Assembly: GCF_030053155.1 (NCBI RefSeq)
Contig: NZ_CP125643.1
Span: forward strand, 372,001-436,000
Length of the DNA stretch: 64,000 nucleotides
Reading direction: 5' to 3'
DNA from: Rhizobium sp. BT03
Lineage (GTDB): Bacteria > Pseudomonadota > Alphaproteobacteria > Rhizobiales > Rhizobiaceae
This document shows, in pieces, positions 805-27,347 of the stretch. The position numbers were made by a program, and so were the translations under genes. The notes under the pieces are model-generated. The model was not told the DNA's origin. It ran no database searches and worked only from the letters and a program-made list of their open reading frames with translations. The number at the start of each line of letters is the position of its first letter. Positions within the stretch are counted from its first letter, which is position 1.

Positions 805-822
805 TTGACAGATTGTCTGATA
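805..822 (+). promoter_or_regulatory. Operator/promoter motif copy 1 (orphan)
   Basis: TTGACA (805-810) is fused to GATTGTC (811-817) and followed by TGATA, the same word found in front of the catabolic genes. A weak -10 candidate, TAATGC, lies 17 bases after TTGACA at 828-833. No gene start with a good ribosome-binding site follows; the first structure downstream is the 935-966 hairpin. Confidence 0.65.
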
Positions 823-934
823 TACGTTAATGCTATTCCTGATCAAAGGCAAGGCAGCATCAGGGAAATCTGCCACGGTTCTAGTGGAGTTCCCGCACGG
901 CAAATCAATCTAAAGATGCCTCCCAAGGCGAGGG

Positions 935-966
935 GTGACGGGCTGCTTTCGATCGCAGCCCGTCAC
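935..966 (+). terminator. 12-bp perfect hairpin downstream of orphan operator
   Basis: GTGACGGGCTGC (935-946) and GCAGCCCGTCAC (955-966) are perfectly complementary around an 8-base loop. There is no T-run after it, so it is not a classical intrinsic terminator. It may be the 3' structure of a short transcript started at the operator at 805. Confidence 0.4.
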
Positions 967-1556
967 GGGAAGGGTGGGAGTGCTATGAGTGGGAGAGAAC
1001 CTACGCCAACCGACCTTGGAGGCCGTTGAGTCGACACGGAGAAAAATGATTGTGCTGTAGGATGGCCCCACGATTTCGCCACACGCTGGTCCTCTTAACC
1101 TGCGCATCAGCATACTTCGGTTATGACGTATAAGAGAGGCACGCTCCAGGCTCAACACTCGGAGACGCAAAGACGTCGACGAGTTCTTTTGGCCTACTAA
1201 GCGAGGCGGTCGCGGCAAATATCAATGCGTAAGCCGCGCCTCGTCGCATTGAGTTGACTTTGCGCTCTTCTTAGCGGGTACGGACTCCGGGCGTCTGATT
1301 GGGCAAAAGAAGAGCTTAAGGACGAAACCTGATGATGGTCAAACAGCTTGTGCTGCCATAGGCGTGCTGTTGTCTGTGCCGCGCGAACGCGAAAAGCGCG
1401 ATCAAATCGGAACGTGGCGGCGAGAGAAGACTAACAGGAAAGACCACATCAAACTCAACCGGGTGTCGGAATACCGATGCTTACGGCATTGCGTGCATGA
1501 GGCCTCAAAATGACGCCGGTCTCGACATGTGTCCGCCGAAAATCGCAAAAAAGGAA

Positions 1557-1577
1557 TTGACAGATTGTCGGACAAAA
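1557..1577 (+). promoter_or_regulatory. Operator/promoter motif copy 2
   Basis: TTGACA (1557-1562) is followed by GATTGTC-G-GACAAAA (1563-1577). The inner TTGTC-G-GACAA is a perfect odd-centred palindrome, which helped define the operator. A possible -10 (TACTAT) is at 1582-1587. It precedes the leader peptide at 1643 and the SDR-like gene at 1711. Confidence 0.8.
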
Positions 1578-1642
1578 ATTTTACTATATCGCCCGCGCAT
1601 TGCTTGTTCGCGGGAGACGCAGCGACGGACCGGGAGTTATAA

Positions 1643-1714
1643 GTGCTAAACTTGGCCAAAAATGCACAAATTGTCGACCTTCTTAATCTGCCGGAAGCGG
1701 CGACCGGCGCGTGA
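1643..1714 (+). CDS. Short upstream leader peptide (23 aa), translationally coupled
   Basis: A GTG at 1643 sits seven bases after a GGGAG sequence (1632-1636) and opens a 23-codon frame ending in TGA at 1712-1714. That stop overlaps the GTG start of the SDR-like gene at 1711 as GTGA, the usual geometry of translational coupling. No family is recognised. It may be a true leader peptide, or the start of the downstream protein in an earlier, unshifted form of the gene. Confidence 0.4.
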   Translation: MLNLAKNAQIVDLLNLPEAATGA

Positions 1715-2460
1715 TACAAGCGTCTCTGACTCACAAGGCGTGTCATACTCCATCGACCGAGGTACTGGTTGAACGTGACAGTGACGCCAACATTTCTCCT
1801 GGGGAAAAAGTCTGTGTCTTGATAGGCGCGTCAAATCCTGTTGGTCTTTGTTTGGCGCGCTCATTTATAGAAAAAGGCTATCGGGTCGCCGTAGGCGACG
1901 CCAATCCCGCCGACTTCGCCTCCCTGGCTGAAGGCCAGGGAAACAATTTTTTACCGGTCAAAGTCAACCCGAACAGAGACGTTTACGTCAACTCAATGGC
2001 TGACCAGGTGTATTTGCGCTGGAGACGGGTCGACGTTCTGGTGAACATAGTTTTCCGCAGAAATGAAACAACCCAAACTGTAACGGGATCGCTATCCAGC
2101 GCGAATCTGGGGCTTGATGCCGTATCCAATCTAATCAGAGTTACAGGTGCCTTTAGCTCTCGACTTCAGGGCGCGGAGCTTGCCGTAGTGGACGTCGCAT
2201 GGTTCGAAGAGACGACCTCGCTGGAAGCAGAAGCCGTCCTTCAAGCGGCGTTGCGCACTACTACCTCCGCAATTGCTAGGCAATATTTCGGTTCCGGGCT
2301 GAGGATAAATGCTGTACACGCCAGCGATGTGAACTCTACGTCTTCAAGCGAAAATGACGTGCTTCGAACAGTGATCCACGCCGTGCAATTCCTGGCGAAT
2401 TCGGAACTGTCCGGAAAGCTGACAGGGAACGTGCTGGAGATCGATCCTCGGTGCAGATAG
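1711..2460 (+). CDS. SDR-fold protein lacking the catalytic Tyr/Lys
   Basis: The 249-residue protein has a short-chain dehydrogenase/reductase layout. A beta strand and glycine-rich turn (CVLIGASNPVG, about residues 35-45), a DVLVN strand, and GLRINAVHASDV near the end match the GIRVNAVAPG region of the family. At the position where SDRs carry YxxxK, the sequence reads EAVLQAALR, so both catalytic residues appear to be missing. Catalysis is therefore doubtful, and a binding or regulatory role is possible. It follows an operator copy at 1557 and overlaps a 23-codon leader, so it appears to belong to the regulon. The start is uncertain: the GTG at 1711 has no good ribosome-binding site of its own. 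Confidence 0.65.
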   Translation: MIQASLTHKACHTPSTEVLVERDSDANISPGEKVCVLIGASNPVGLCLARSFIEKGYRVAVGDANPADFASLAEGQGNNFLPVKVNPNRDVYVNSMADQVYLRWRRVDVLVNIVFRRNETTQTVTGSLSSANLGLDAVSNLIRVTGAFSSRLQGAELAVVDVAWFEETTSLEAEAVLQAALRTTTSAIARQYFGSGLRINAVHASDVNSTSSSENDVLRTVIHAVQFLANSELSGKLTGNVLEIDPRCR

Positions 2461-2671
2461 ATCCACTCCCACGTTCTGATCCGGCAAATCTGCAGGTATT
2501 AACCTTCCGTTAAGTTTCTCGAAAGACGCAATGGGTAAGAGGTCAAATCCTAACAACACGTAAAAAAGTTTCGATTGTTTTAGTGAAACTCTTATCCATG
2601 TTCGTTCAGGCTCAAACATTACTATTCCAAAAGCGAGGCCCCAGCACCGTTTGAGCCCTTTGGAGGTAAGT

Positions 2672-9838: not shown

Positions 9839-9861
9839 TTGACAGATTATCATACAATCTG
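9839..9861 (+). promoter_or_regulatory. Operator/promoter motif copy 3 (best-preserved outer arms)
   Basis: TTGACA (9839-9844) overlaps a 19-bp near-palindrome, CAGATTATC-A-TACAATCTG (9843-9861), in which seven of nine base pairs are symmetric. This copy shows the full extent of the operator. It lies about 40 bases in front of the GTG start of the first hydrolase of a three-gene operon. No good -10 is visible at 17 bases. Confidence 0.85.
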
Positions 9862-9899
9862 CCAAAAATGTCGCCAAGCACCTGATGGGAGGAAAATCA

Positions 9900-12730: not shown

Positions 12731-12762
12731 CCCACAATAAACCGATTGAAATTTTTTGCTGT

Positions 12763-12807
12763 TTGCAGACAATCGGGTTGTCCTACGAAACGCTCCGGCA
12801 GTATATT
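12763..12807 (+). promoter_or_regulatory. Promoter and variant operator of the gntR gene (copy 4)
   Basis: GACAATC (12768-12774) and GGTTGTC (12776-12782) form an inverted repeat, GACAA-N5-TTGTC. These are the same half-sites as elsewhere but turned outside-in with a wider centre. TTGTCC (12778-12783) and TATATT (12802-12807) make a plausible -35/-10 pair with an 18-base spacer, so the operator overlaps the -35. This suggests autoregulation of the GntR gene. Confidence 0.65.
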
Positions 12808-12850: not shown

Positions 12851-13540
12851 ATGGGAACGATCGACCTCCAGATTAGACGTCAAAACGCCTCTCTTCGAAT
12901 CCTTGTTGAGGATAAGCTCCGGCAGGCTATTTCAAGTGGCCGTTTCAAGCCCGGGCAGCGGCTGGTGGAGCGCGAGTTGTGCGAACTTATCGGGGTTGGC
13001 CGAACTTCAGTTCGCGAGGCGCTACGCCAGTTAGAAGCTGAAGGGCTTATTACTAGCTATCCGCATCGGGGGCCGGTTGTCAGCACTATCAGCTACGAGG
13101 AGGCTAGGCAGCTTTATAGTGTACGCGCGCTGCTTGAAAGCTTTGCCGGCCAGGAGTTCGCCGAGAACGGTTCGAATGAAGAGATCGTTGCTCTCCTCGA
13201 GACCGTGGAAGCGTTCGAAGCCGCAGCCAAGAGCGGTTCCGGAACGCGGATCATCGAAGCCAAGACCGCTTTTTACGATTGTTTGATGACCGGCAGCAAG
13301 AACGTGTTTGTGAAGCAAATGCTCACGTCGTTGCACAACCGGGTCACATTGTTGCGGATGACATCGATGACCCAGCCAGGGCGGCTGCAGAACAGCGTTT
13401 TCGAAATAAGAGAGATTGCGGCCGCTATTGCGTTGCGTGATGGCGACAGGGCAGCCGCGCTTTGCAAGCGCCATATCGAAATCGCGGCTAAGGTGGCGTT
13501 GGACTACTTGAGCAAGAACCCCGTCGAAACCTCCGAGTAG
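12851..13540 (+). CDS. GntR-family regulator, FCD (FadR C-terminal) subfamily
   Basis: This 229-residue protein has an N-terminal winged helix (LRQAISSGRFKPGQRLVERE, then GVGRTSVREALRQLEAEGL, residues about 15-70) and an all-helical FCD ligand domain. At the position where FCD proteins usually read EHxxI it reads EIREI, so one usual metal-binding histidine seems replaced, while the late histidine (KRHIEIA) is kept. It is the only GntR gene in the island and lies at its centre with an operator variant in its promoter. It is therefore the best candidate for the protein that binds the repeated operator, probably as a repressor released by a pathway intermediate (inference). Confidence 0.93.
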   Translation: MGTIDLQIRRQNASLRILVEDKLRQAISSGRFKPGQRLVERELCELIGVGRTSVREALRQLEAEGLITSYPHRGPVVSTISYEEARQLYSVRALLESFAGQEFAENGSNEEIVALLETVEAFEAAAKSGSGTRIIEAKTAFYDCLMTGSKNVFVKQMLTSLHNRVTLLRMTSMTQPGRLQNSVFEIREIAAAIALRDGDRAAALCKRHIEIAAKVALDYLSKNPVETSE

Positions 13541-13573: not shown

Positions 13574-13596
13574 TTGACAGATTGTCTGAAAATCTG
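13574..13596 (+). promoter_or_regulatory. Operator/promoter motif copy 5
   Basis: TTGACA (13574-13579) overlaps CAGATTGTC-T-GAAAATCTG (13578-13596). Eight of nine symmetric positions match, making this the most symmetric copy. It precedes the hydrolase at 13670; CTTACC at 13597-13602 is a weak -10 candidate. Confidence 0.85.
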
Positions 13597-13669: not shown

Positions 13670-14899
13670 ATGGGCGCCCATGCCGAGCTGATTAAACGCG
13701 TAACCCTGGCGATCGAAGATCCGGAGCTACCGCGACTGACCCCAGGTCTTACAACACGGATCTCGTTGCAAGTTGGACCAGAAAAGTCATCACTTGCTGT
13801 GGGAGGCGGGATAGTCGCACTGGACGGCGCGGACGAAAATGCTGACGTCATACTGAGTGCCCCAGAAGGAGCTTGGGAAAAGGTTATGCAGGTGCCGCCG
13901 CCGGCAACCTACCATTCGTTCACCGCCTTTCAACTCGCTAACCCTGAGTTCACGTTATCTGGTTCGCCCGTAGCAATCGCTCAAGCGCGTCCCGCTCTGG
14001 AGCGACTGTTCGAAATCGTCGTAGCGTCTCCGCCCCTAGTTGCGCCGAAGGTCGATCGAAATATTGAACAGGTCACCGGACGCTATAAGCGGGTAGAGGT
14101 CGGCGGCGTAGAACACGATATCTTTTACGAGGAAGCCGGTGCAGGAACTCCTATCCTTTTCCTCCATACGGCTGGCGCAGACGGCCGTCAGTTTCTACCG
14201 CAACTCTCCGACACTGGGTTTGCGCGTACGAACCGATTGATCTCAGTTGATCTGCCGTTTCACGGACGTTCGATGCCTCCTTTAACTTGGGACGGCTCGC
14301 CCTATCAACTCACAACGGATCTCTACCTGACCTGGTGCACGGCGATACTCGACCAGCTCGTCGGAGACAGAGCTATCGTCGTTGGAGGATCTATGGGCGC
14401 GGCGATGTGCATGGTGCTGGCGGCGGAGCGACCGGAACGTCTAATGGGTGTAATTGCGGTCGAGCCGCCGTTGAAGTCAAAGGGCCGTCGCAACCCCTTT
14501 CAACACAACGTCAACGTTCATGGGTCGCTTCATAACTCAGCCTATGTCCGCGGAATCATGAGCCCGCTCAGCCCGCAAGAAGAGCGACGCCGCGCCAGTT
14601 GGATCTACTCGCAGGGTGCTCCTGGAGTTTATCCCGGCGATCTTTCGTTCTACAGCGACGAGTTCGACGGTGCCGTCGTCGGTCCGAAGATTGATGCCAA
14701 GCGAACACCGACCGTTCTTCTCTCCGGGACCTATGACTACTCTGCGACGCCTGCAGACGGAGCAGCGCTAGCGGCCCTCATTCCTGGCAGCCGTCATGTC
14801 GTTATGGAGGGGCTTGGGCACTTTCCGATGTGCGAAAATCCTGACTATTTCCGGAGCTTCTTGCAAGACGCTATTCGGTTCGTCGAAGATAACGGCTGA
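13670..14899 (+). CDS. Alpha/beta-hydrolase fused to an SCP2-like N-terminal domain
   Basis: ATG 13670 follows AGGGAGG and gives 409 residues. The first 130 or so resemble a sterol-carrier/SCP2-like lipid-binding fold (weak call). The rest is an alpha/beta-hydrolase with an oxyanion region (FLHTAGADGRQF), nucleophile elbow GGSMGA (Ser241), a late acid region (LLSGTYDYSA) and catalytic-His region (MEGLGHFPMCENPDYF). It likely cleaves an ester, thioester, enol-lactone or C-C bond, much as RutD or PcaD do in their pathways. It is alone behind operator copy 5, and the IS remnant follows its stop by 28 bases. Confidence 0.85.
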   Translation: MGAHAELIKRVTLAIEDPELPRLTPGLTTRISLQVGPEKSSLAVGGGIVALDGADENADVILSAPEGAWEKVMQVPPPATYHSFTAFQLANPEFTLSGSPVAIAQARPALERLFEIVVASPPLVAPKVDRNIEQVTGRYKRVEVGGVEHDIFYEEAGAGTPILFLHTAGADGRQFLPQLSDTGFARTNRLISVDLPFHGRSMPPLTWDGSPYQLTTDLYLTWCTAILDQLVGDRAIVVGGSMGAAMCMVLAAERPERLMGVIAVEPPLKSKGRRNPFQHNVNVHGSLHNSAYVRGIMSPLSPQEERRRASWIYSQGAPGVYPGDLSFYSDEFDGAVVGPKIDAKRTPTVLLSGTYDYSATPADGAALAALIPGSRHVVMEGLGHFPMCENPDYFRSFLQDAIRFVEDNG

Positions 14900-16615: not shown

Positions 16616-17383
16616 TCACTTGACCAGGTGGTTTCCGATCGAGGAGCCGCCATCGACCGTCAGAATGCTACCGGTCGCGAACCTCGAACGATCGGACGCA
16701 AGAAAAAGCATTGCTTCAGCAATCTCTTCAGCTGTCCCCATCCGATCCATGACGGCACGGGCGTTGAAATCGCTGCGAAGCTTCGCGGGGTCCTTCGCTT
16801 CGGCGAAGATTTTCGTGAAGTAAGGAGAGTCGATTGTCCCTGGAGCGACCGCGTTGACACGAATTCCCTCTTTCGCATGATCCATGGCCATCGCGCGCGT
16901 CAGCGAAGATATTGCTCCTTTCGATGCTACGTAGGCAGTCCTGTCCGCGATTGCTGAGGTTGCGGTGTAGGAAGTCGTATTGATGATCGAACCTCCGCCG
17001 TTCCGTCGCATAACAGGAATGACGTACTTTGAGCAAAGGAAGATCCCTTTGACGTTTACGGACATAATCCGGTCCCAAGTTTCTTCAGGAATGGTCACCA
17101 CATTCCCCGTCGTTCCGAACCCGGCATTATTGACGAGCACGTCGACCCGGCCCCACTTTGCGGTCGTCTTCTCAACCATGCTTTCCGCGTCCTTGGCGGA
17201 CGAGACGTCGACGCGAACACCGAAAGCCTTCGAGCCGATCTCGTTCGCCACACGAACCGCGGCGTCTTCATTGACATCAGCAACAACCACATAGGCGCCG
17301 TTCTTTGCGAAAAGCTCGGCTGTCGCACGACCAATGCCGCTGCCGCCCCCTGTGACGATACAAACTCTTTGATTCAAATCCAT
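16616..17383 (-). CDS. Short-chain dehydrogenase/reductase
   Basis: The minus-strand ATG at 17383 follows GAGGAGA and gives 255 residues. All classical SDR landmarks are present: TGGGSGIG at about residues 11-18, NNAG at 85-88, Ser138, Tyr151 and Lys155 (YVASK), and the C-terminal GSILTVDGGSS. It should oxidise or reduce a hydroxyl/keto group with NAD(P). It is transcribed away from the flavin reductase operon, and each side has its own operator copy in the shared intergenic region, so it is probably co-induced with the monooxygenase. Confidence 0.95.
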   Translation of the reverse strand: MDLNQRVCIVTGGGSGIGRATAELFAKNGAYVVVADVNEDAAVRVANEIGSKAFGVRVDVSSAKDAESMVEKTTAKWGRVDVLVNNAGFGTTGNVVTIPEETWDRIMSVNVKGIFLCSKYVIPVMRRNGGGSIINTTSYTATSAIADRTAYVASKGAISSLTRAMAMDHAKEGIRVNAVAPGTIDSPYFTKIFAEAKDPAKLRSDFNARAVMDRMGTAEEIAEAMLFLASDRSRFATGSILTVDGGSSIGNHLVK

Positions 17384-17454: not shown

Positions 17455-17483
17455 TTGACAGATTGTCTGCTGATCTGTTTATC
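17455..17483 (+). promoter_or_regulatory. Operator/promoter motif copy 7 (for the monooxygenase operon)
   Basis: TTGACA (17455-17460) overlaps CAGATTGTC-T-GCTGATCTG (17459-17477). TTTATC at 17478-17483 is a fair -10 at exactly 17 bases. It drives the flavin reductase gene starting at 17518. Confidence 0.85.
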
Positions 17484-17517
17484 TAGGCTCGATCGAATTT
17501 GGCCGTGGGAGGACAAT

Positions 17518-18027
17518 ATGGCCGATACCAGCACTGAGGCGCAGTTGGCTTTTAAGGCAGCTATGCGTCGGTTCACATCAACCATCTGCTTGATCACGAC
17601 CGAACTCAACGGGGTCCGTCATGGCATGGCCGCCACCGCGGTCCAGTCGGTTACCGCGGACCCACCAACTGTTCTTGTCTGCATCAACCAATCGGCTTCG
17701 GTGAATCAGCCTTTGAAGATCTCCGGGAAGTTCGCCGTGAACATGCTGCATCTTTCACATGCCGATCTTGTGCCGCTGTTCAGTGGGCAATTGAAGGGTG
17801 AAGAGCGCTTTCATTACGGCGAGTGGCTGTCTCTCGACGGCATGCCGGTCCTGTCCGATGCGCAGGCGGCGTTTGTCTGCAAGCTAAAAGATGTCGTTCA
17901 CGTTGGAACGCATGATGTTGTGCTCGGAGAAGTGCTCGAAGCACGGTTCATCGAGTCAATCGCGCCGCTTCTCTACGAAAACGGTCAACTCGTCAGGTCG
18001 TCGTCCATCAGTGGATCGGCCGCATAG
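17518..18027 (+). CDS. Flavin reductase (RutF/HpaC-type) partner of the monooxygenase
   Basis: ATG 17518 follows GGGAGGA and gives 169 residues. The protein has the split-barrel flavin-reductase fold (AAMRRFTSTICLITTEL, GMAATAVQSVTADPPTVLVCIN, GKFAVNMLHLSHADL). Enzymes of this group reduce FMN or FAD with NAD(P)H and pass it to a separate monooxygenase. The RutA/SfnG-like monooxygenase two genes downstream is the natural partner. It is the first gene of the operon under operator copy 7. Confidence 0.93.
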   Translation: MADTSTEAQLAFKAAMRRFTSTICLITTELNGVRHGMAATAVQSVTADPPTVLVCINQSASVNQPLKISGKFAVNMLHLSHADLVPLFSGQLKGEERFHYGEWLSLDGMPVLSDAQAAFVCKLKDVVHVGTHDVVLGEVLEARFIESIAPLLYENGQLVRSSSISGSAA

Positions 18028-18090
18028 TAGGTGGCTTTAACCACCAATCACATCACTCATCGAAAGCCCAAGGGCGGCAAGGAGAAAAGC

Positions 18091-18507
18091 GTGAGCAATA
18101 TGGCACCCGCAAGAGAAATTCATGGACGTGAAGTCACAGAGCGCTTTGAGCGCGGACTAAAGACCCGGCGCGAAGTCTTGGGGGGGGGCTATGTTGATGC
18201 GTCGGTCAGCAAAGCCACCGACTTCAATTGGCCGATGCAAACCCTCGTCACAGAATACTGCTGGGACGCGATTTGGAATCGGCCGGGCCTGGAGCGCAAG
18301 CAGCGCAGCATCCTCAATCTCGGGATGATTTCGGCCCTCAATCGTCCGCATGAGCTGAAACTGCATGTTCGCGGAGCAATCAACAACGGTCTTACCAAAG
18401 AGGAAATTCGGGAGGTTTTCCTCCAGGTTTCGATTTACTGCGGTGTTCCTGCGGCCATCGACAGCTTCCGCGTGGCAGCGGAAGTTTTCGACGAGATGGG
18501 CATCTAG
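18091..18507 (+). CDS. 4-carboxymuconolactone decarboxylase-like protein (PcaC-like)
   Basis: GTG 18091 is chosen because GGAG at 18081-18084 precedes it at good spacing; GTG 18031 has no such site. The 138-residue protein matches the PcaC/CMD fold, with RKQRSILNLGMISALNR, a core helix, and LQVSIYCGVPAAIDSFR, the usual IYCG-P-A signature near the active site. True PcaC removes CO2 from gamma-carboxymuconolactone in the beta-ketoadipate pathway; other members are peroxidase-like. Its place between the flavin reductase and the monooxygenase suggests it acts on the ring-opened or lactone product (inference). Confidence 0.9.
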   Translation: MSNMAPAREIHGREVTERFERGLKTRREVLGGGYVDASVSKATDFNWPMQTLVTEYCWDAIWNRPGLERKQRSILNLGMISALNRPHELKLHVRGAINNGLTKEEIREVFLQVSIYCGVPAAIDSFRVAAEVFDEMGI

Positions 18508-18567
18508 TTATTCAACGCATTTGAGTGGGCTGAGCATCATCCGTTGCCAGCCCGAGGAGGGACTACA

Positions 18568-19689
18568 GTGACCGCACAAGACGATTTCCGCGCTGCCGGA
18601 AACCCAATGTTCAATGATAACAAGCTCAAGCTCGGCGTATTTGGCACGAATTGCTCGAATGCATGCGCGATTACGCTCGCTGAGACAACGTTCGAACCTA
18701 CCTTCGACCACAACGTCGAGATTGCAAAGAAGCTTGAGGCAGCCGGTTGGGAATGCATGGTGCCGATTGCACGCTGGCGTGGTTTTGGCGGTCCTTCAAA
18801 CTTCAATGGCGTGAACATGGATACGTTCACCTGGGCGGCCGCTCTCGCGGCGGTCACCACGAAGCTCCAGTTCTTCTCAACGACTCACATTCCGACGCTA
18901 AACCCGATTGTTGCAACCAAGATGGCGACAACAATCGATCACATCTCGAAGGGTCGATACGGCCTCAATCTCGTTACCGGCTGGTTCACTCCCGAAATGG
19001 AAATGTTCGGAGTTCCTATGATGGAGCACGACACCCGCTATGAATACGCCACTGAATGGATGGATATCGTCGAGACGCTCTGGAAACGCAATGGCGTTAC
19101 CTTCGAAGGCGAGTTCCTCAAAGTCAAAGACGCCTTCAGTGAACCCAAACCCTACAACAAGGCGGGTCGCCCGCTCCTGATCTGCGCCGGCGCCTCGGGC
19201 AAGGGACTGCATTTCACCGCCAAGTTCTGCGACTTCAACTTCGGCTTCATGCAAGACATGGAATCCGGCGCTGCCTGGGTCAAAAAGGTGAAGGACCTGG
19301 CGCGTACTGAATATAACCGTGATCTTGGCACATTCACAGCTTGCCCCGTTATCGTTCGCGAAACGGAGAAGGAAGCAAAGGAATACTACGACTACTACGT
19401 CAACCAGAAGGGTGACTGGGAGGCATGCGAGAACATCTGTGAAGTTCTGCAGGTGCAATCTCAAAACCATTCTGCCGAAATGTATCAAAAATTCAAGGAA
19501 CGCTTCGTCGCTGGCTGGGGTGGATACCCGATCGTCGGCAATCCAGAACAAGTCGCCGACAAGCTCGTGGATCTCAGCAATACAGGCGTCAACGGCGCCT
19601 TGCTGACAATGGTCGATTACAACGAGGAACTTCCCTTCTTTAACGACCGTGTCATGCCGCTGCTCAAGCAAGCCGGTCTGCGCAACTGA
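18568..19689 (+). CDS. Luciferase-like flavin-dependent monooxygenase (RutA/SfnG-like)
   Basis: GTG 18568 follows GAGGAGG and gives 373 residues of the bacterial luciferase-like fold. The pattern of RWRGFGGPSNFNGVNMD, TTHIPTLNPIVATKMA, TIDHISKGRYGLNLVTGWF, the HDTRYEYATEW helix, and ICAGASGKGLHFTAKFCDF follows RutA, which opens the uracil ring with reduced FMN, and SfnG, which acts on dimethylsulfone. It needs reduced FMN from a reductase, and two candidate reductases lie in the same regulon. It is the likely ring- or bond-cleaving enzyme of the pathway. The substrate is unknown; the absence of RutB and RutC neighbours argues against simple pyrimidine use. Confidence 0.93.
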   Translation: MTAQDDFRAAGNPMFNDNKLKLGVFGTNCSNACAITLAETTFEPTFDHNVEIAKKLEAAGWECMVPIARWRGFGGPSNFNGVNMDTFTWAAALAAVTTKLQFFSTTHIPTLNPIVATKMATTIDHISKGRYGLNLVTGWFTPEMEMFGVPMMEHDTRYEYATEWMDIVETLWKRNGVTFEGEFLKVKDAFSEPKPYNKAGRPLLICAGASGKGLHFTAKFCDFNFGFMQDMESGAAWVKKVKDLARTEYNRDLGTFTACPVIVRETEKEAKEYYDYYVNQKGDWEACENICEVLQVQSQNHSAEMYQKFKERFVAGWGGYPIVGNPEQVADKLVDLSNTGVNGALLTMVDYNEELPFFNDRVMPLLKQAGLRN

Positions 19690-19698
19690 ACCAGTCCT

Positions 19699-19746
19699 CG
19701 GGACGGCGATTGCCGTCCCGACACGAACTCTGCCAGATTCTGGCAG
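19699..19746 (+). terminator. Tandem hairpins between monooxygenase and binding-protein genes
   Basis: Two stem-loops follow the monooxygenase stop. The first is CGGGACGGC-GATT-GCCGTCCCG (19699-19720), the second CTGCCAG-ATT-CTGGCAG (19730-19746). Only the second is followed by a short T-rich stretch (GATTTT). They may partly end or stabilise the upstream transcript. Confidence 0.6.
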
Positions 19747-19812
19747 GATTTTCGCGGCTGGCGGCCAAAGGGGCCGGCGGTTGAGCGGAACCACAAGGGG
19801 AGGAGGCCCTGA

Positions 19813-20982
19813 ATGCTGAAGAAAATCGTTGCAGCGCTTTTTACGCTGTCGAGCCTTTATCACATGAACGGCGTGGCGAAGGCTGACGGCCTCGATTCGT
19901 TGCCGCCGGACCAAAAGGCGCTTTACGAGAATATCGATCCCGCCATTCCGCTCGGGGGGACGGTGTACAAAGATTTTGTTCCAAAACGTCCACCGCCGTG
20001 GAAAATTGGTTATGCATCCACATATGCCGGTAATACCTGGCGCGCGAACATCCTGGACGAATTCACCAACGTATTGCTTCCGAGATATAAGGAAGCAGGC
20101 CTAGTCTCCGATCTAATCGTCACGCAGTCTGACCTCAAAGACGCTGTCCAAATCCAGCAGATGCGGCAGATGGTTGACGACGGTGTTGATGCGATCGTCA
20201 TTTGCTGCTCGAACATTACCGCACTTAACAAGACCATAGAGTATGCTCATTCGAAAGGCGTGCCAGTCTTCTCAGTCTCGGGCTATGTCACATCACCCTA
20301 CGCAATCAATGCCACAGAGAATAACACCGACGGTGGCTACAAGGCTGCTGAATGGCTTGCCAAGGAAATCGGTGAAAAAGGCAACGTCCTGATGGTATCG
20401 GGCATCCCCGGTTTCGCATCATCGGACAGCTTCGACATCGGCGCGAAGAACGCGTTCGATAAATTCCCCGGTATCAAAATTGTAGGCACGATAGCTGGCA
20501 AATGGACCGACCAGGTCGCCCAGGTTGAGGTTCAGAAGTTTCTTGCCACCAATCTTGCTGAGGTTAATGGCATTCTCGTTCAGTCCGCTTCAGAAAACGG
20601 TGTCGTGAACGCAGTACAGCAATCCGGCCGCGACATGATGCCTATCGTGCTCGGGGGTGAGGCTTCGGCAGCCTGCTACTGGCGTAAGAACCCTGATTTC
20701 ATAAGCAAGAGCTTCCATTTCTGGCCGCCGCGGTCTGATGCCCGCCTTGTGTGGGACGTCATGATGCGAACGCTCGAAGGCCAGGGACCAAAGATCCAGT
20801 CGATTCTTCGTCCTGCGCTTCCTTACACCATTGATGACGTGAAGGAAGTGCTGAAGGAAGATTGCGATCCCAATTCCACGGATTGGATCGAGCCGAAGAA
20901 CAACGGCTGGTGGCCTGCAGACGTCGCTGCAAACTACTTCGAACGTCCTGAAGATCCGTTAGCTTGGCGGCCGAAGAAGTAA
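19813..20982 (+). CDS. TorT-like periplasmic substrate-binding protein 2
   Basis: ATG 19813 follows GGGGAGGAGG and gives 389 residues with a signal peptide ending near residue 24 (GVAKADG). It is the close paralogue of the protein at 5370-6569, sharing PPWKIGYASTYA, QMRQMVDDGVDAIVICCSN, SGIPGFASSDSFDIG and VLGGEASAACYWRKNPDF. The fold is the type I sugar-type periplasmic binding protein. It lies in the monooxygenase operon without its own permease, so it may deliver substrate to the transporter at 28598-32085 or to a chemoreceptor. Its stop codon overlaps the first possible start of the aminotransferase. Confidence 0.9.
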   Translation: MLKKIVAALFTLSSLYHMNGVAKADGLDSLPPDQKALYENIDPAIPLGGTVYKDFVPKRPPPWKIGYASTYAGNTWRANILDEFTNVLLPRYKEAGLVSDLIVTQSDLKDAVQIQQMRQMVDDGVDAIVICCSNITALNKTIEYAHSKGVPVFSVSGYVTSPYAINATENNTDGGYKAAEWLAKEIGEKGNVLMVSGIPGFASSDSFDIGAKNAFDKFPGIKIVGTIAGKWTDQVAQVEVQKFLATNLAEVNGILVQSASENGVVNAVQQSGRDMMPIVLGGEASAACYWRKNPDFISKSFHFWPPRSDARLVWDVMMRTLEGQGPKIQSILRPALPYTIDDVKEVLKEDCDPNSTDWIEPKNNGWWPADVAANYFERPEDPLAWRPKK

Positions 20983-22277
20983 TGAATGTTCTCCGGAAGG
21001 AGACCTCCCAGCCTCCCGCGTCGGTTTCTATAATCGGCGCGGGAGGTATCTGCGATTTGATTGGAAATAGTGTGCTGGACTTTCACAGAATTCAACGTTT
21101 GCCGCCTTATGTTTTCGAACAGGTCAACCGTTTGAAAGCAAGCGCGCGAGCGGGCGGCGCCGATATCATTGATCTCGGCATGGGAAACCCCGACCTTCCC
21201 ACTCCTCAGTCGATCGTCGACAAGCTGTGCGAGGTCGTGCAGGATCCGCGCACCCACCGCTATTCCTCCTCCAAGGGCATTCCGGGGCTGCGCCGTGCCC
21301 AGGCCGCCTATTATGCCCGCCGTTTCGGTGTCAAGCTCAACCCGGATACCCAGGTGGTCGCCACCTTGGGCTCCAAGGAAGGCTTCGCCAACATGGCGCA
21401 GGCGATCACCGCGCCCGGCGACGTGATCCTCTGCCCGAACCCGACCTATCCGATCCACGCCTTCGGTTTCCTGATGGCGGGCGGCGTGATCCGCTCGATG
21501 TCGGTTGAGCCGGATGAGAGCTTTTTCCCGCCGCTGGAGCGGGCGGTCCGGCATTCGATCCCGAAGCCGTTGGCGCTGATCCTCAACTATCCGTCGAACC
21601 CGACGGCCCTCGTCGCGACGCTCGATTTCTATAAGGACGTCGTCGCCTTCGCCAAGAAGCATGACATCATCGTGCTTTCCGACCTTGCCTATTCCGAGAT
21701 CTACTTCGACGGCGCTTCGCCGCCATCGGTTCTCGAAGTGCCGGGTGCAATGGATGTGACCGTCGAATTCACCTCGATGTCGAAGACCTTTTCCATGCCC
21801 GGCTGGCGCATGGGCTTTGCCGTCGGCAACGAGCGGCTGATCGCGGCGCTCACCCGCGTCAAGTCCTATCTCGACTACGGCGCCTTCACGCCGATCCAGG
21901 TGGCCGCGACCCATGCGCTGAACGGCGACGGTTCCGACATTGCGGAGGTTCGCAACGTCTACAAGCGTCGCCGCGACGTCATGGTCGAAAGCTTCGGGAA
22001 GGCCGGCTTCGACGTGCCGCCGCCGGCTGCCACCATGTTCGCCTGGGCAAAGATCCCGGAAAAGTTCCGTCATCTCGGTTCGCTGGAGTTTTCCAAGCTG
22101 CTGGTCGAGAAGGCCGACGTCGCCGTTGCACCGGGTATCGGCTTCGGCGAAATGGGCGACGACTACGTCCGTCTGGCGCTCGTCGAGAACGAACACCGCA
22201 TCCGCCAGGCTGCGCGCAACATCAAACGCTGGCTTAGCGGCGACGAGAAATTTGAAATCAACGTAATGAATCAGTGA
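20982..22277 (+). CDS. PLP-dependent aminotransferase (AlaC-like)
   Basis: The conserved protein (FHRIQRLPPYVFEQVNRLK, DLGMGNPDLPTP, KGIPGLRRAQAAYYARRFG, LNYPSNPTALVA, and the PLP-lysine region SMSKTFSMPGWRMGF) is a fold-type I aminotransferase of the AlaC/LL-DAP group. It transfers an amino group between an amino acid and a 2-oxo acid. The conserved part begins near 21075. The roughly 30 residues from ATG 20982 are not typical, so GTG 21072 is an alternative start, and the last residues also depart from the family. Codon use is richer in G and C than in its neighbours and resembles a chromosomal core gene, suggesting it was captured from the chromosome. Confidence 0.9.
   Translation: MNVLRKETSQPPASVSIIGAGGICDLIGNSVLDFHRIQRLPPYVFEQVNRLKASARAGGADIIDLGMGNPDLPTPQSIVDKLCEVVQDPRTHRYSSSKGIPGLRRAQAAYYARRFGVKLNPDTQVVATLGSKEGFANMAQAITAPGDVILCPNPTYPIHAFGFLMAGGVIRSMSVEPDESFFPPLERAVRHSIPKPLALILNYPSNPTALVATLDFYKDVVAFAKKHDIIVLSDLAYSEIYFDGASPPSVLEVPGAMDVTVEFTSMSKTFSMPGWRMGFAVGNERLIAALTRVKSYLDYGAFTPIQVAATHALNGDGSDIAEVRNVYKRRRDVMVESFGKAGFDVPPPAATMFAWAKIPEKFRHLGSLEFSKLLVEKADVAVAPGIGFGEMGDDYVRLALVENEHRIRQAARNIKRWLSGDEKFEINVMNQ
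21012..21046 (+). repeat. Inverted repeat at the 5' edge of the aminotransferase gene
   Basis: CCTCCCGCG (21012-21020) and CGCGGGAGG (21038-21046) are perfect complements around a 17-base centre. The repeat lies between the binding-protein stop and the conserved part of the aminotransferase. It may be an attenuator, or a scar from the joining of the aminotransferase gene. Confidence 0.45.
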
Positions 22278-22288
22278 AAGGATACCCG

Positions 22289-22687
22289 ATGCCAATCTTC
22301 GGATCATGCCAATGCAAAGCGGTAACGTACCAGGTTCAGGAAATTGATGGACCCATGTGGAATTGCTTCTGTCAAACATGCCGGAAGTCACACGCCGCTG
22401 ATCACAATACCGCTGCGAAGGTGAAAAGCGAGCACTTCAAGATCCTTACAGGCCAAGATACGCTTCATAGCTTCGAATCGACGCCTGGAAAGCTGCGGTG
22501 GTTTTGTTCGGTATGTGGCTCGCACGTTTATGCGGAGCGGCCGGCCAGCCCGGAGCTCAAAGTCGTTAGAGCCGGCACGTTCGATACCGATCCTGGAAGT
22601 GTGCCGATGTCAAACGTATGGGTATCGCATGCGGAACCTTGGCTCGCCCATGATCCATCGAAGGCAAGCTCACCAGAGTTCCCGTAA
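22289..22687 (+). CDS. GFA-domain zinc protein
   Basis: ATG 22289 follows GAAAGGAT and gives 132 residues with the glutathione-dependent formaldehyde-activating (GFA/CENP-V) fold. Zinc-binding cysteines occur as GSCQC (Cys7, Cys9), NCFCQTC, and WFCSVCGSHVY. Members bind glutathione adducts or act as small-molecule lyases or dehalogenases; many are uncharacterised. It is the last gene of the monooxygenase operon. Together with the zinc alcohol dehydrogenases it could handle a reactive aldehyde released by the pathway (inference). Confidence 0.88.
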   Translation: MPIFGSCQCKAVTYQVQEIDGPMWNCFCQTCRKSHAADHNTAAKVKSEHFKILTGQDTLHSFESTPGKLRWFCSVCGSHVYAERPASPELKVVRAGTFDTDPGSVPMSNVWVSHAEPWLAHDPSKASSPEFP

Positions 22688-22689
22688 GT

Positions 22690-23005: not shown

Positions 23006-23018
23006 TTGTAAGATTGTC
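23006..23018 (+). promoter_or_regulatory. Operator motif copy 8 (variant, near FMN reductase start)
   Basis: TTGTAA (23006-23011) is joined to an intact GATTGTC (23012-23018). It differs from the common word at two bases. The reductase ATG is only 30 bases further on, too near for a normal promoter with the -35 at TTGTAA. This copy may act only as an operator, with the promoter slightly upstream. Confidence 0.55.
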
Positions 23019-23047
23019 TTATGCGAGAATGTTGGGAGTCCTGTGAC

Positions 23048-23566: not shown

Positions 23567-23582
23567 TAAGGAGGAGGATTCC

Positions 23583-24863
23583 ATGTCTTTTTCGAGCATA
23601 GATGAGGCGATCGAGGCGATCGAAGCGGGCGAGATGGTTATCGTGGTCGACGACGAAAACCGGGAGAATGAAGGCGACCTAGTCGTTGCTGCCGAAAAAA
23701 TAACAGCTGAGCACATCGCTTTCATGATGAAATATGCGAGAGGCCTTATCTGCGTGCCACTTCCAGCCGAACGTCTCGACAAACTCGAGATCCCCCTGAT
23801 GGTCACACGTAATTCGGACTCACTGCAGACGGCATTTACCGTTTCCGTCGATTGCAAACACGGCACAACGACAGGGATTTCAGCCGAAGATCGAGCAGCA
23901 ACCGTCAAGTCGCTCATCGATCCGCAGACGCGGCCGGAAGACCTATCGCGACCGGGTCACATTTTTCCTTTGCGTGCAAATCGTCTCGGTGTCCTGGGCC
24001 GTCCTGGCCACACCGAAGCTGCCGTGGATCTTGCACGACTTGCCGGCCTGGCGCCGGCTGGCGTAATCTGCGAGATCGCCAATGACGACGGAACCATGTC
24101 TCGACTGCCAGATCTCGAGAAGTTCGCAATCGAACATGGCCTGCACATAGTAACGATCGACGCTTTGATTGAGTACTGCAGGAGTCGTGATACGAGGGTA
24201 AAGCGTTACGCGCAGTCCTTTATGCCAACGCGGTTTGGGGATTTCAAGGCAATTGCTTATCGCGATAGTTTGACGGGAACGGAACACTTAGCTTTGACAC
24301 TTGGCGAGTTGTGCGAGAAGGAAGACGTTCTGGTACGGGTGCATTCTGAATGTCTGACAGGTGAGGCGTTCCGGTCCATGCGATGCGACTGCGGTCAACA
24401 GCTCGAAATGGCTCTTCGGGCGGTCCAGTTAGCGGGCGCTGGTTGCGTGATCTACATGCGTGGGCAAGAGGGGCGTGGCATTGGCTTAGGAAACAAAATT
24501 GCGGCTTACAGCCTGCAGGATCATGGTCGTGATACTCTTGAGGCAAATCGGGAACTCGGCTTCGCATCTGATTCCCGCGAATATAACGCAGCGGCGGATA
24601 TCATCCGCGACCTCGGTATCGGCAGCGTTCGGCTTCTGACCAACAATCCTACAAAAATAGAGGCGCTGCGAACGTCAGGCGTCATCGTGTCGTCTCGCCA
24701 GAGTCTGATCGCCGCATCTAGCGCGTCCAACATCACTTATTTTAAGACAAAGCGCGATCGGTTTGGCCACCTGTTGGACCAGGACACGTCAGCTGAACAC
24801 GTCGGCCGGAGCAACGTCTTTTCAGTGTTTGGCGCGCAGGTGTTCTCTGGACCCCTTGGATAA
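23583..24863 (+). CDS. ribBA: RibBA: DHBP synthase / GTP cyclohydrolase II
   Basis: ATG 23583 follows GGAGGAGG and gives 426 residues. The N-terminal half is DHBP synthase, with DDENRENEGD at residues 23-32 and HGTTTGISAEDR. The C-terminal half is GTP cyclohydrolase II, with zinc ligands Cys257, Cys268 and Cys270 (HSECLTGEAFRSMRCDCG), RGQEGRGIGLG, and LLTNNPTKI. The usual GD after SECLT is GE. Both entry enzymes of riboflavin synthesis are thus present in a catabolic operon. No FMN riboswitch was seen; control appears to come from the island's operator. This is probably an extra copy to raise flavin levels when the monooxygenase is induced. Confidence 0.95.
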   Translation: MSFSSIDEAIEAIEAGEMVIVVDDENRENEGDLVVAAEKITAEHIAFMMKYARGLICVPLPAERLDKLEIPLMVTRNSDSLQTAFTVSVDCKHGTTTGISAEDRAATVKSLIDPQTRPEDLSRPGHIFPLRANRLGVLGRPGHTEAAVDLARLAGLAPAGVICEIANDDGTMSRLPDLEKFAIEHGLHIVTIDALIEYCRSRDTRVKRYAQSFMPTRFGDFKAIAYRDSLTGTEHLALTLGELCEKEDVLVRVHSECLTGEAFRSMRCDCGQQLEMALRAVQLAGAGCVIYMRGQEGRGIGLGNKIAAYSLQDHGRDTLEANRELGFASDSREYNAAADIIRDLGIGSVRLLTNNPTKIEALRTSGVIVSSRQSLIAASSASNITYFKTKRDRFGHLLDQDTSAEHVGRSNVFSVFGAQVFSGPLG

Positions 24864-25099
24864 CGGAGCCGCCCTCGCCACTTACCTGCCGGTGATTGTA
24901 GGGGGCCGCCTTTGACCGGCAGAGTCCTAGAGCTTTTGCGTGGGCCCTGCCAGCACATCATTCGTGCAGGCCTATCGGAGTGATGTGGCCCGCGATTGCA
25001 TCGAAAGCAGCGTTCGACCATATCTCGTCTTGAGCACGGCTGTTCCGACGGATCGCATTTAATCGCGGTCCGTCTTGTCTTTCGAAAAGTCTCGCAAAA

Positions 25100-26206
25100 C
25101 TAATGCTTCATGCGAAGGATCGGCTTAATGACTTTGCCGCTCTCGGAATCAGCCATCGCCTCGTTGATCTGGTCGAGGTCATAGAACTGAACCAGTTTGT
25201 CGAACGGGAAAAGTCCCTGCTGCCAATACTCGATCAACTGCGGGACGAACTCGGACGGAACGCTTTGTCCTTCGACAACGCCGATCAATGTGCGGCCGAA
25301 AAGGAAGTTCCCGATATCGATCGTGCCTTCAGTGCCGAGAGCGGACGAGCCAACGAGACCGCATGTTCCCGGCGTACCAAGGCAGTCGACTGCCTGACGG
25401 AAAACTCGCGGCGAACTCGTGCATTCCAAGCTGAAATCAACGCCTGCGGGGACGATCTTCCTGATCGCGGCAACGCTGTCCAATTTGCGGGCATTTATCG
25501 TGTGCGTCGCCCCGAGTTCGCGCGAAAGTTCCAGCCGTTCATCGTTCAAGTCGATCACGATGATGGTCGCGCATCCGGCGATTTTCGCGGCCATCGTAGC
25601 CGCCATGCCAACCGCACCAGCACCGAACACTGCTATTGACGAGCCGGGCTTCGGCTTGAGGCAATTCAGTACCGCGCCAGCACCGGTCTGAAGCCCGCAC
25701 CCGAGCGGTCCGATCAACTCGAGTGGAACATCCTTTGCAACCTTCACGGCGTTTCGTTCGCTGGCGATGGCGTAGGTTGCAAATGACGACTGCTCGAAGA
25801 AGCAGCCACTAATCTGTTTCCCGTGAGAATCATGGATCGGGCAGGTGCCATCCGGACGAGTGCCGCGGAAATTGCGACCGAAGAAGTCCTCGCAGTAGAA
25901 AGGTGTACCGGAAAGGCACTTTTCGCACTTGCCGCAATAGGCGTAGCTCAAAGCAACGTGATCACCGGGCACAAGATCTTTAACTGCGCTCCCGACGGCC
26001 TCGACGACGCCAGAGCCTTCGTGTCCCAACACAACAGGTTGAGGTACGTCATATCCCTGGTCCCTGACCACCAGGTCGGTATGACATACCCCCGATGCGA
26101 CGATGCGGACCAAAATCTCGTCTGCACGAGGTTCCTCAATCCCTATGCACTCCAAGATCAAGGGCTTCGCCTTTTCGCGCGAGACCGCCGCATATGCCTG
26201 CTTCAT
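25100..26206 (-). CDS. Zinc-dependent alcohol dehydrogenase (aryl-alcohol DH-like) B
   Basis: The minus-strand ATG at 26206 follows GGAGGAAC and gives 368 residues. Landmarks are GVCHTDLVVRD and GHEGSGVVEAVG for the catalytic zinc, AYCGKCEKCLSGTPFYC for the structural zinc, and AVFGAGAVGMAATMAAK for NAD. The sequence is of the XylB/aryl-alcohol dehydrogenase type. It is closest in the window to the dehydrogenase at 32144, with which it shares the QSSFATY/QSSFATH and PLGCG stretches. It is a single gene behind operator copy 9 and probably oxidises an alcohol of the pathway. Confidence 0.93.
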   Translation of the reverse strand: MKQAYAAVSREKAKPLILECIGIEEPRADEILVRIVASGVCHTDLVVRDQGYDVPQPVVLGHEGSGVVEAVGSAVKDLVPGDHVALSYAYCGKCEKCLSGTPFYCEDFFGRNFRGTRPDGTCPIHDSHGKQISGCFFEQSSFATYAIASERNAVKVAKDVPLELIGPLGCGLQTGAGAVLNCLKPKPGSSIAVFGAGAVGMAATMAAKIAGCATIIVIDLNDERLELSRELGATHTINARKLDSVAAIRKIVPAGVDFSLECTSSPRVFRQAVDCLGTPGTCGLVGSSALGTEGTIDIGNFLFGRTLIGVVEGQSVPSEFVPQLIEYWQQGLFPFDKLVQFYDLDQINEAMADSESGKVIKPILRMKH

Positions 26207-26250
26207 GTAACTGTTCCTCCAAGGCTCACAACGCAATTCGCGCGAACGTA

Positions 26251-26273
26251 CTCATCGTCAGACAATCAGTCAA
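26251..26273 (-). promoter_or_regulatory. Operator/promoter motif copy 9 (for dehydrogenase B)
   Basis: On the minus strand TTGACT (26273-26268) is followed by GATTGTC (26267-26261), then T and GACGATGAG. Seven of nine symmetric positions match. TACGTT lies 17 bases after TTGACT. It faces the dehydrogenase start at 26206. Confidence 0.75.
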
Positions 26274-26568
26274 TAATTACTCTAAAATTAGATCAGTTCA
26301 ACCGGAGCAGGGCTGCATTTTTGCAAAGTCACGAGTGAACGCTGATTTGAAGTGATCAAAGGGTTCCGATGCATGTTCGAAAGGGAGCATGCGTCTTGTC
26401 CCGCTTTGGGCTGAAAGATCGGCTGACGAAAATTTAGTAGCAACGTGTGAGGCGAGCCGGATGGCGTCGCTTGCCGACGTCGAGCCGGTTCTGAAGGCTA
26501 TCGACAGCTTCGAGACACCGGTATTGCCAAGTTCAACCGACTACAAACGATGCTACTGCCAGCCAGGC
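26274..26568. other. Intergenic region between dehydrogenase B and the mutase-like gene
   Basis: An open plus-strand frame is present, but it has no family match and no clear ribosome-binding site. Nothing else was recognised. Confidence 0.4.
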
Positions 26569-27198
26569 TTAACAGACAGTACCAACCAGGACGTTAGTCT
26601 TCTCGATGATCGAGAGGTCCGACGCAATCCGGTATACAGTTGGCGCGGCGGTCGGTGACTCAATAGCGAGCGTATCCTGGATCGTGAGGCGTTCGATGCC
26701 CTGCTTTAGTGACCTGATCGTATTCCCGTGGGCCACCACAAGAACCGATTTCCCTCTCAACAAGGGGGGGAACACTTCGCTTATCAAAAAGGGCAGAACC
26801 CTCGCGCTTATGTCCCGTATGCTTTCTCCCCCAGGTGGTGGAGTGCTGTACGAGCGGCGCCAAACCTGGACAACATCCTGGCCCCACCGCTCACGTGCCA
26901 CGTTCTTGTTGATGCCGGTGAGCTGTCCGTAGTCGCGTTCGTTCAACTCGGTTCTCCTGATTGGCTCCAGCAGATCGCCGTTGGTTTCGTTCAAAATCGC
27001 TCTGCAAGTGTCGACTGTGCGCAAGAGGGCAGAGCTAAACGCAATATCGAACGAGATGCCGAGGTTCGCGAGCAGTGAGCCGGCTCGCCTGCTCTCAGAC
27101 CAGCCCTCCTGTGTGAGCGGCACGTCGCTCGTACCCGTGAACTCCCCGCGCGCGTTCCCTTCGCTTTGGCCATGCCGGACAATCACCAGAGTGGACAT
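26569..27198 (-). CDS. Histidine phosphatase / phosphoglycerate mutase-like protein
   Basis: This 209-residue protein has the histidine-phosphatase core: VRHGQSEGN with catalytic His9, RTELNERDYGQLTG, PPGGESIRD, and VVAHGNTIRSL with the second catalytic histidine. These features match 2,3-bisphosphoglycerate-dependent phosphoglycerate mutase, but related phosphatases share them. It is a single gene behind operator copy 10, which ties it to the regulon. It may serve carbon flow from the pathway into lower glycolysis, or dephosphorylate a pathway compound (inference). Confidence 0.9.
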   Translation of the reverse strand: MSTLVIVRHGQSEGNARGEFTGTSDVPLTQEGWSESRRAGSLLANLGISFDIAFSSALLRTVDTCRAILNETNGDLLEPIRRTELNERDYGQLTGINKNVARERWGQDVVQVWRRSYSTPPPGGESIRDISARVLPFLISEVFPPLLRGKSVLVVAHGNTIRSLKQGIERLTIQDTLAIESPTAAPTVYRIASDLSIIEKTNVLVGTVC

Positions 27199-27247
27199 TC
27201 ATAACCCTCCCATCGATTTAGCGAACACGAATATTGTCGCACCATCG

Positions 27248-27260
27248 GACAATCCGTCAA
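27248..27260 (-). promoter_or_regulatory. Operator/promoter motif copy 10 (for the mutase-like gene)
   Basis: On the minus strand TTGACG (27260-27255) is followed by GATTGTC (27254-27248); the second half-site is poor. It faces the gene starting at 27198. Copy 11 starts 65 bases away on the other strand, so the two divergent units share this control region. Confidence 0.7.
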
Positions 27261-27324
27261 GTGCGACTATGTGCAAGTGAAAACAAAACGATGTCGAAAA
27301 AACAAACGTCGAAGTTTATATTTA

Positions 27325-27347
27325 TTGACAGATTGTCTGATAGCTCA
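27325..27347 (+). promoter_or_regulatory. Operator/promoter motif copy 11 (for the transporter operon)
   Basis: TTGACA (27325-27330) is followed by GATTGTC (27331-27337), then T and GATAGCTCA. TACCAA at 27348-27353 is a weak -10 candidate at 17 bases. The binding protein of the ABC operon starts at 27454. Confidence 0.85.

Follow-up and report, generated by a model that had tools for sequence, protein, structure and literature searches.

What controls the genes of a catabolic island in Rhizobium sp. BT03 in which one short word recurs at promoter after promoter, and which protein reads that word? We analysed a 64,000-nucleotide stretch of contig NZ_CP125643.1 (C4:372001-436000, hereafter the window) within a genome of 6,907,391 bases in seven contigs; positions are those of the window unless marked C4. 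An earlier note, made from the letters of the window, had described eleven copies of the word and attributed them to the one GntR gene that it saw in the island. We give a probability of roughly 0.8 to a modified answer, namely that two sister genes, gntR1 and gntR2, encode a repressor pair that uses one operator to control a teu-type uptake and catabolic regulon as well as its own genes. These two genes are very probably the switch that reads the shared word. We regard the regulon as real, large and local, with an operator that fits the family of its regulators, and its interest lies in being the probable switch for a locus that responds to bean exudate.

Distribution and form of the operator

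The word proved to be tied to the island and was not equally frequent elsewhere. All 10 matches to TTGACNGATTNTCNNA in the whole genome fell within one 42-kb stretch (C4:356905-399340), and the reversed control had 0 matches. When up to 2 mismatches from the 16-mer TTGACAGATTGTCTGA were allowed, 13 matches were obtained, all on C4, with 12 in the same stretch and 1 at C4:293185. At 3 mismatches, the 16-mer had 17 matches on other contigs, compared with 8 for the reversed word. The 12-mer core, CAGATTGTCTGA, matched exactly at 8 places in the genome, again all on C4.

Core sites were then gathered from 19 sources, comprising the window, two further stretches of this genome and 16 loci selected from other records; they numbered 73, or 71 once near-identical ones were removed. 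A position matrix was trained on 57 of these sites, none of which came from the replicon of the window, and its consensus was CAGATTGTCTGATAATCTG. Over 104 kb of C4, the matrix returned 19 hits above 13 bits, which represent 14 separate sites (10 in the window). By comparison, 100 Markov-1 random sequences gave a mean of 1.04 such hits (largest, 5), and the top score in the reversed 104-kb sequence was 11.3. Because 20 plain shuffles produced scores of up to 19.8, the weakest sites (27260, 14.4 bits; 12768, 15.7 bits; 1557, 17.5 bits) rest also on their position and conservation. Each of the eleven quoted sequences was present where the earlier note had placed it, and ten stand as sites. The copy at 23006 was not recovered by the matrix (6.6 bits), while four further sites lie upstream of the window and one at C4:293185. 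This suggests about fifteen live sites and a regulon that reaches past the window edge. The sites are as follows.

809..827, plus strand: orphan operator with no downstream gene start before the next site; TTGACA from 805; 22.4 bits
1561..1579, plus strand: operator before an SDR gene; TTGACA from 1557; 17.5 bits
9843..9861, plus strand: operator, a near-perfect palindrome, before the MBL-ADH-MBL-gntR1 series (ADH, alcohol dehydrogenase); 29.7 bits in the minus reading and 15.0 in the plus
12758..12776, minus strand: operator upstream of gntR1, in an autoregulatory position; 15.7 bits; present in an 11-locus alignment
13578..13596, plus strand: operator before an alpha/beta hydrolase gene; TTGACA from 13574; 30.2 bits
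17418..17436, minus strand: operator before the SDR gene at 16616-17383; TTGACA from 17440; 27.2 bits; same place in diverged loci
17459..17477, plus strand: operator before the flavin reductase series; TTGACA from 17455; 27.2 bits; same place in diverged loci
23010..23028, plus strand: unsupported site (23006 of the earlier note) before an FMN reductase gene (23048-23566) and RibBA; 6.6 bits
26251..26269, minus strand: operator before a zinc ADH gene (25100-26236, minus); TTGACT from 26273; 21.0 bits; orthologous sites in three other loci (L041, L053, L055)
27238..27256, minus strand: weakest accepted operator, before a histidine-phosphatase-family gene (26569-27198, minus); TTGACG from 27260; 14.4 bits
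27329..27347, plus strand: operator before a contiguous sugar-type ABC importer; TTGACA from 27325; 22.7 bits; the Rhizobium tropici orthologue has a site at L059:17046
C4:356133 (minus), C4:356909, C4:357115 and C4:358111/358129: operators upstream of the window; above 13 bits; in the word searches, C4:356133 (minus), C4:356905, C4:357111 and C4:358133 (minus)
C4:293185, 63 kb away: operator before a GH3 glycosidase gene; 25.1 bits

No gene mapped downstream of the first site, in agreement with the earlier note. A match at 4067 (CAGATTGTCGGACGTGACC) lies inside a chemoreceptor gene (2651-5185) without a -35 element and was not counted.

Across species, the operator is the palindrome CAGATTGTC-T-GATAATCTG, which usually overlies a -35 hexamer, TTGACA. 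Single copies here often have a weak mirror half, but comparison across species brings it out clearly. Beyond the letters used in the search, the right arm agreed with the mirror at a mean of 3.7 of 7 positions in the 71 sites, compared with 1.7 at random positions; the agreement reached 5 of 7 or more in 44% of the sites and in 1.2% of random positions. The ideal form proposed earlier, CAGATTGTC-N-GACAATCTG, was not the closest fit. After the G-A of the right arm, the mirror C occurs in 13 of the 71 sites and the matrix prefers T, so the halves are usually GTC and ATC, and CAGATTGTC-T-GATAATCTG describes them better. The FadR-subfamily motif of Suvorova and others consists of TKGT and ACMA boxes with 3 nt between GT and AC (PMC4494728, text available in part). 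The consensus here, TTGT-CNG-AYAA, has these boxes and this usual spacing.

TTGA stands immediately 5' of the core in 47 of the 71 nonredundant sites. An AT-rich segment at -10 distance was seen over 47 sites (AT content of 0.71 at offset 23, compared with 0.39 to 0.51 from offset 29 on), which taken alone is weak evidence. At most structural-gene promoters, the operator covers one edge of the -35 hexamer plus the spacer. At the sites upstream of the gntR genes, TTGACA is lacking and the core is inverted, so the operator is separable from the -35 element.

The regulator pair and its association with the operator

The island had been credited with a single GntR gene. This analysis revealed a second copy, 15 kb upstream of the window, whose product is 73% identical to that of gntR1; the next paralogue in the genome, on another contig (C5), is 36% identical.

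12851..13540, plus strand: gntR1, GntR/FCD (FadR-subfamily) regulator; PF00392, 4.7e-20; PF07729, 8e-27
C4:356203-356883: gntR2, GntR/FCD regulator; PF00392 and PF07729 above cut-off

The GntR helix-turn-helix and FCD domains scored above cut-off in R. tropici gntR1 as well, and the recognition segment, VGRTSVREALRQLEAEGLITS, is identical in gntR1 and gntR2. The usual metal ligands of FCD domains are Asp and His residues, which are present in many, though not all, members. Here the corresponding columns read K138, Y142 and I186/R187, with H208 the only ligand kept, so that the metal set is incomplete. In 14 aligned sequences, K138 and Y142 are invariant, I186 is nearly so and H208 is kept. The ligand is therefore probably bound without the common metal site.

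The pair resembles the local catabolic repressors GlcC, LldR, DgoR and PdhR of the FadR subfamily in its GntR helix-turn-helix plus FCD architecture, in its TKGT..ACMA palindrome and in serving several operons plus its own gene. It differs in that two paralogues share one operator with longer conserved arms (CAGATT) and in that the FCD metal ligands are replaced, so the effector is probably held differently. The best NCBIfam match of GntR1 is the PhnR-type phosphonate family TIGR03338 (127 bits), well short of the curated cut-off (271.5 bits), and no phosphonate gene was present among the proteins scanned.

The operator accompanies these genes closely. In an alignment of 11 loci covering both lineages and Rhizobium, Agrobacterium and Shinella, the core read backwards, CAGACAATC, is invariant upstream of gntR in 11 of 11. 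The wider comparison covered all 60 gntR matches in the loci collected, leaving out L001 and L003. Fifty-four of them have the core with up to 2 mismatches within 150 bases upstream (34 within 1 mismatch), compared with 54 of 1,200 random 150-base windows, and 50 of the 60 have it with at most one mismatch within 130 bases downstream. In these comparisons, gntR1 and gntR2 are labels given by the best BLAST match; for R. tropici and for R129_N, the labels say gntR2 and the position says gntR1.

The alignment also accounts for the site at 12768, which had been taken for a rearranged copy. It is an operator in normal register on the minus strand, 12776 to 12758 (CCGATTGTC-T-GCAAACAGC), before gntR1. 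An extra GTTGTC-like half (GGGTTGTC or near), which is the part noticed earlier, lies beside it, within 12758-12790. The extra half is kept in the five gntR1-type loci aligned, and gntR2-type promoters in the same 11-locus alignment have no such conserved half-site. Extra half-sites 7 to 12 nt from the center have been described for GntR sites (PMC4494728, in its available part).

Regulator and operator also occur in the same genomes. Within the genus Rhizobium, a gntR match (E≤1e-60) was found in 33 of 148 genomes and an exact TTGACNGATTGTCTGA in 33 of 148; compared by eye, they are the same 33, which makes operator plus gntR a sharp marker. Every one of the 33 carries two or four gntR copies. 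A family sample of 297 genomes, five of which also belong to the genus sample, held gntR in 5; the operator was present in 5 of 5, and one of the 292 others (G185) has a single copy. Outside Rhizobium, one gntR copy was found in three Agrobacterium tumefaciens, one Agrobacterium rubi and one Shinella plasmid, and two copies were found in an Agrobacterium salinitolerans plasmid and in Pararhizobium arenae. The half of the system on the A. tumefaciens and Shinella plasmids is of the gntR2 type. Since Agrobacterium and Shinella plasmids carry these genes, the chemistry extends beyond bean symbionts.

Loci with other gene neighbors lend the pairing independent weight, because A. rubi, an uncultured member of the Rhodobacteraceae and Shinella keep the operator near gntR with few shared neighbors. 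In A. rubi (GntR 56 to 58% identical), GATTGACAGATTGTCTGATAGC lies between gntR and a flavin reductase gene; on the Rhodobacteraceae contig (63%), TTGACGGATTGTCTGA is directly 3' of gntR; and in another genus (G089, 69%), the sole exact operator copy stands 30 bases after gntR. Of 48 loci, 46 contain one or more sites that differ from the 16-mer at no more than 2 positions, and the reversed control gave 0 in every locus. One of the loci without such a site, L051, is a 55-residue match in an unrelated bacterium. A separate observation concerns the A. rubi plasmid pW2_73_1 (L056), where the same operator lies beside nitrile hydratase, amidase, CMD and flavin reductase genes; its GntR may be a related regulator acting on another substrate. 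In Azospirillum, the recognition segment of the GntR protein (48%) is altered to VSRPILREAL, and a weak core, CATACTGTCTGACAAG, lies 28 bases upstream of the gene. As this weak core is present, we did not retain Azospirillum as a negative case, and a joint change of operator and helix is unproven.

Conservation at diverged promoters was seen before the alpha/beta hydrolase gene. Of the seven loci chosen, two are nearly alike; across all seven, TTGACAGATTGTCTG, the right-arm ATCTG and the TTA that follows are invariant, and the flanks align poorly (mean column identity, 48%). Together, confinement, co-occurrence with gntR, conservation at diverged promoters and agreement with the FadR-subfamily consensus lend good support to the proposal of the earlier note that the word would be the operator of a GntR/FCD regulon.

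Proposed mechanism and competing explanations

According to our model, a GntR dimer would sit on CAGATTRTC-N-GAYAATCTG, at most structural-gene promoters with one half overlapping the -35 hexamer and the rest in the -35/-10 spacer, and would thereby shut out RNA polymerase. The sites before each gntR gene, together with the position of gntR1 behind the operon that starts at 9839, would let the regulators control their own level. The FCD domain would bind a plant compound present in bean exudate, or one of its breakdown products, and the protein would then leave the DNA. Release would switch on the ABC importers, a flavin-dependent monooxygenase and its reductase, hydrolases and lactonases, dehydrogenases and a distant GH3 glycosidase. 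Binding, repression, release by an inducer and use of the operator by both paralogues are all steps that we infer.

Several points weigh against this model. The repressor role, as opposed to that of an activator, is read from the position of the sites. The second half is poor in several single sites, and the conserved TTGAC could be a signal of the promoter and not of the operator. With one mismatch, the 12-mer has 18 matches on other contigs, compared with 1 for the reversed 12-mer, an excess over the control. Besides these 18 of 33 matches outside C4, we set aside the one at C4:265073; none of the 19 is within 2 mismatches of the 16-mer, and we took them to be chance or coding matches. Since weak look-alikes exist, single weak sites need to be judged by position. 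Six of the 60 gntR matches have no upstream core: the second copies of L016, L017 and L037, and the single matches of L043, L047 (67%) and L056, the last of which is A. rubi, where the operator sits 183 bases upstream, outside the 150-base search range. In L016, L017 and L037, the tandem second gntR (71 to 72%) lies about 8 kb from the first and has no core within 2 mismatches on either side. Acidisoma (L049, GntR 59%) has no 16-mer within 2 mismatches and shows only a weaker CGGATTGTCTGTCAATCGG. Finally, the plasmids of the 33 Rhizobium genomes are related, so that the co-occurrence of gntR and operator is partly joint inheritance and the events are not independent.

The alternative that survives best is that the operator is real and is read by one of the two paralogues only, with the other reading something else, or by a third regulator. 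The paralogues differ at 27% of aligned residues, proteins that are 60 to 70% identical may bind distinct motifs (PMC4494728, in the part available), and the extra conserved half-site stands in gntR1-type and not in gntR2-type promoters. However, the recognition segment is the same in both paralogues, the same core precedes genes of both lineages, and the single-gntR plasmids of A. tumefaciens and Shinella, which are of the gntR2 type, use the same word. We consider a single reader unlikely on these grounds. An activator role for GntR at the operator sites is quite improbable, given that most structural-gene sites have the operator lying across the -35 hexamer and the spacer, where it would be expected to block polymerase. 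Slightly less probable still is that the word serves mainly as a strong promoter cassette, made up of TTGACA and its spacer, which spread by copying between genes and has no dedicated regulator; this would suit the TTGA found directly 5' of the core in 47 of 71 sites but not the gntR sites that keep the core without TTGACA and in reverse, the dyad symmetry beyond the search word, the unrelated flanks or the word following gntR across genera.

Within the repressor-pair model, the two paralogues might read their one operator with two inputs, either different ligands or homo- and heterodimers, and the regulon would then open only for the right combination of host compounds; we offer this as a tentative and rather doubtful refinement.

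Relation to teu, plasmid setting and gene content

The window is part of the symbiotic plasmid of a bean-nodulating Rhizobium of the R. etli/R. phaseoli type. In a DNA search, positions 9500-33500 were covered at 80% or more at one place in 36 plasmid records, 35 of them at 99% identity or more. The 20 matches listed comprise R. phaseoli, R. etli, R. esperanzae, R. sophoriradicis and further Rhizobium isolates, and their source is Phaseolus vulgaris throughout. The same region is also on p42d of R. etli CFN42.

Such plasmids are reported to carry the teu locus. In the available portions of PMC3557214, PMC4125696 and PMC5968715, teu of R. tropici, first reported in 1998 as an importer, is described as induced by exudates of bean and Macroptilium atropurpureum and as needed for nodulation competitiveness. 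According to the accessible text of PMC4125696, CFN42 and CIAT652 have teu on their symbiotic plasmids and strain Mim1 of sv. mimosae is reported to have none, and the genes are named teuBAC1C2 in what is available of PMC5968715 and PMC8416774. In R. phaseoli, ABC genes known from work in 1998 rose in bean exudate (PMC8581550, partial text). The portions of the teu literature at hand name no regulator, operator or substrate for teu; our literature searches on teu, GntR and p42d brought up no description of the present operator or regulator, and the accessible part of PMC9611204 holds nothing on the present regulon regarding GntR or p42d.

The island shares its plasmid type with teu (pRtrCIAT899a of CIAT 899, according to partly available text, and the symbiotic plasmids of sv. 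phaseoli). Between the two candidate importers, sequence does not single out teu. Two importers with the gene order binding protein-ATPase-permease-permease are found on the R. etli plasmid and on pRtrCIAT899a, and all four lie behind the operator: at 27325 in the window, at C4:358111 before the CMD gene with which the importer series opens, at L059:17046, and at L059:5443 and 6439, the last two preceding the dehydrogenase and CMD genes of the importer series. Since both candidate importers are behind the operator, whichever of them is teu belongs to the regulon. A third ATPase-permease-permease set, with no adjoining binding protein, lies behind an operator at L052:28840 in R. tropici. If the model is true, a regulator pair, an operator and a gene set that includes the distant glycosidase are in hand for a teu-type locus, and the plant compound recognised by bean symbionts could be found by an assay of release from DNA.

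The genes behind the operators are listed below; that each series forms one transcript is inferred from spacing.

1819-2460: SDR gene, with its start taken from the p42d annotation
9885-10796, 10809-11936 and 11936-12730, plus strand: MBL hydrolase, zinc ADH and MBL lactonase-like protein (Pfam, NCBIfam), followed by gntR1
13670..14899, plus strand: alpha/beta hydrolase (PF00561)
16616..17383, minus strand: SDR oxidoreductase (PF13561, 1.1e-70), with its start likewise from p42d
17518..22687, plus strand: flavin reductase, CMD-family protein, luciferase-like (LLM) flavin monooxygenase (18568-19689), sugar-type periplasmic binding protein, aminotransferase and GFA protein
27421-28542, 28598-30127 and on to 32085, plus strand: ABC importer, candidate teuBAC1C2, with binding protein, ATPase and two permeases (Pfam)
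Within 27421..34899, after the importer, plus strand: zinc ADH, ABM-domain protein and FAD oxidoreductase
C4:293538-295982: GH3 glycosidase gene

Upstream of the window, the operators precede gntR2, a 3-hydroxyisobutyrate-dehydrogenase-like gene and a series that runs CMD, hypothetical protein, hydrolase, ABC importer and aldehyde dehydrogenase. The importer of the window, with its ADH, ABM and FAD-oxidoreductase genes, is thus the second of the regulon, to which the GH3 glycosidase also belongs. The start positions of several orthologues are BLAST extrapolations and may be off. Among ten window proteins compared with NCBIfam, only the aminotransferase and RibBA passed the curated cut-off.

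The LLM monooxygenase, reductase, lactonase-like hydrolases, dehydrogenases and GH3 enzyme suggest that the substrate is a glycoside whose aglycone is oxidised and hydrolysed. The GH3 enzyme and the sugar-type importers likewise point to a glycoside as the inducer. The GH3 gene of R. tropici CIAT 899 lies next to the gntR1 island, with the operator about 341 bases upstream, compared with about 349 here (L052, L058); the separation of 63 kb in BT03 therefore looks secondary. A second core, at C4:292805, was not counted as a live site, as it aligns with the gntR upstream region of another locus (L044; 73% over 392 bases). The surrounding segment (L058:8495-8890, that is, C4:292495-292890) resembles a gntR upstream region, contains an exact core at 8805-8816 and comes within about 16 bases of the GH3 upstream region. 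It looks like the relic of a lost further gntR promoter, which would mark the GH3 break.

Some neighboring features deserve mention. RibBA, a riboflavin synthesis gene (23583-24863), adjoins the FMN reductase gene and perhaps supplies flavin for the LLM monooxygenase. Between the alpha/beta hydrolase and SDR genes lies a broken Mutator-type transposase in two reading frames (14954-16132). Three sugar-type periplasmic binding proteins, 64 to 68% identical (5370-6569, 19813-20982 and L002:7966-9132), share one plasmid with fewer matching ATPase/permease sets.

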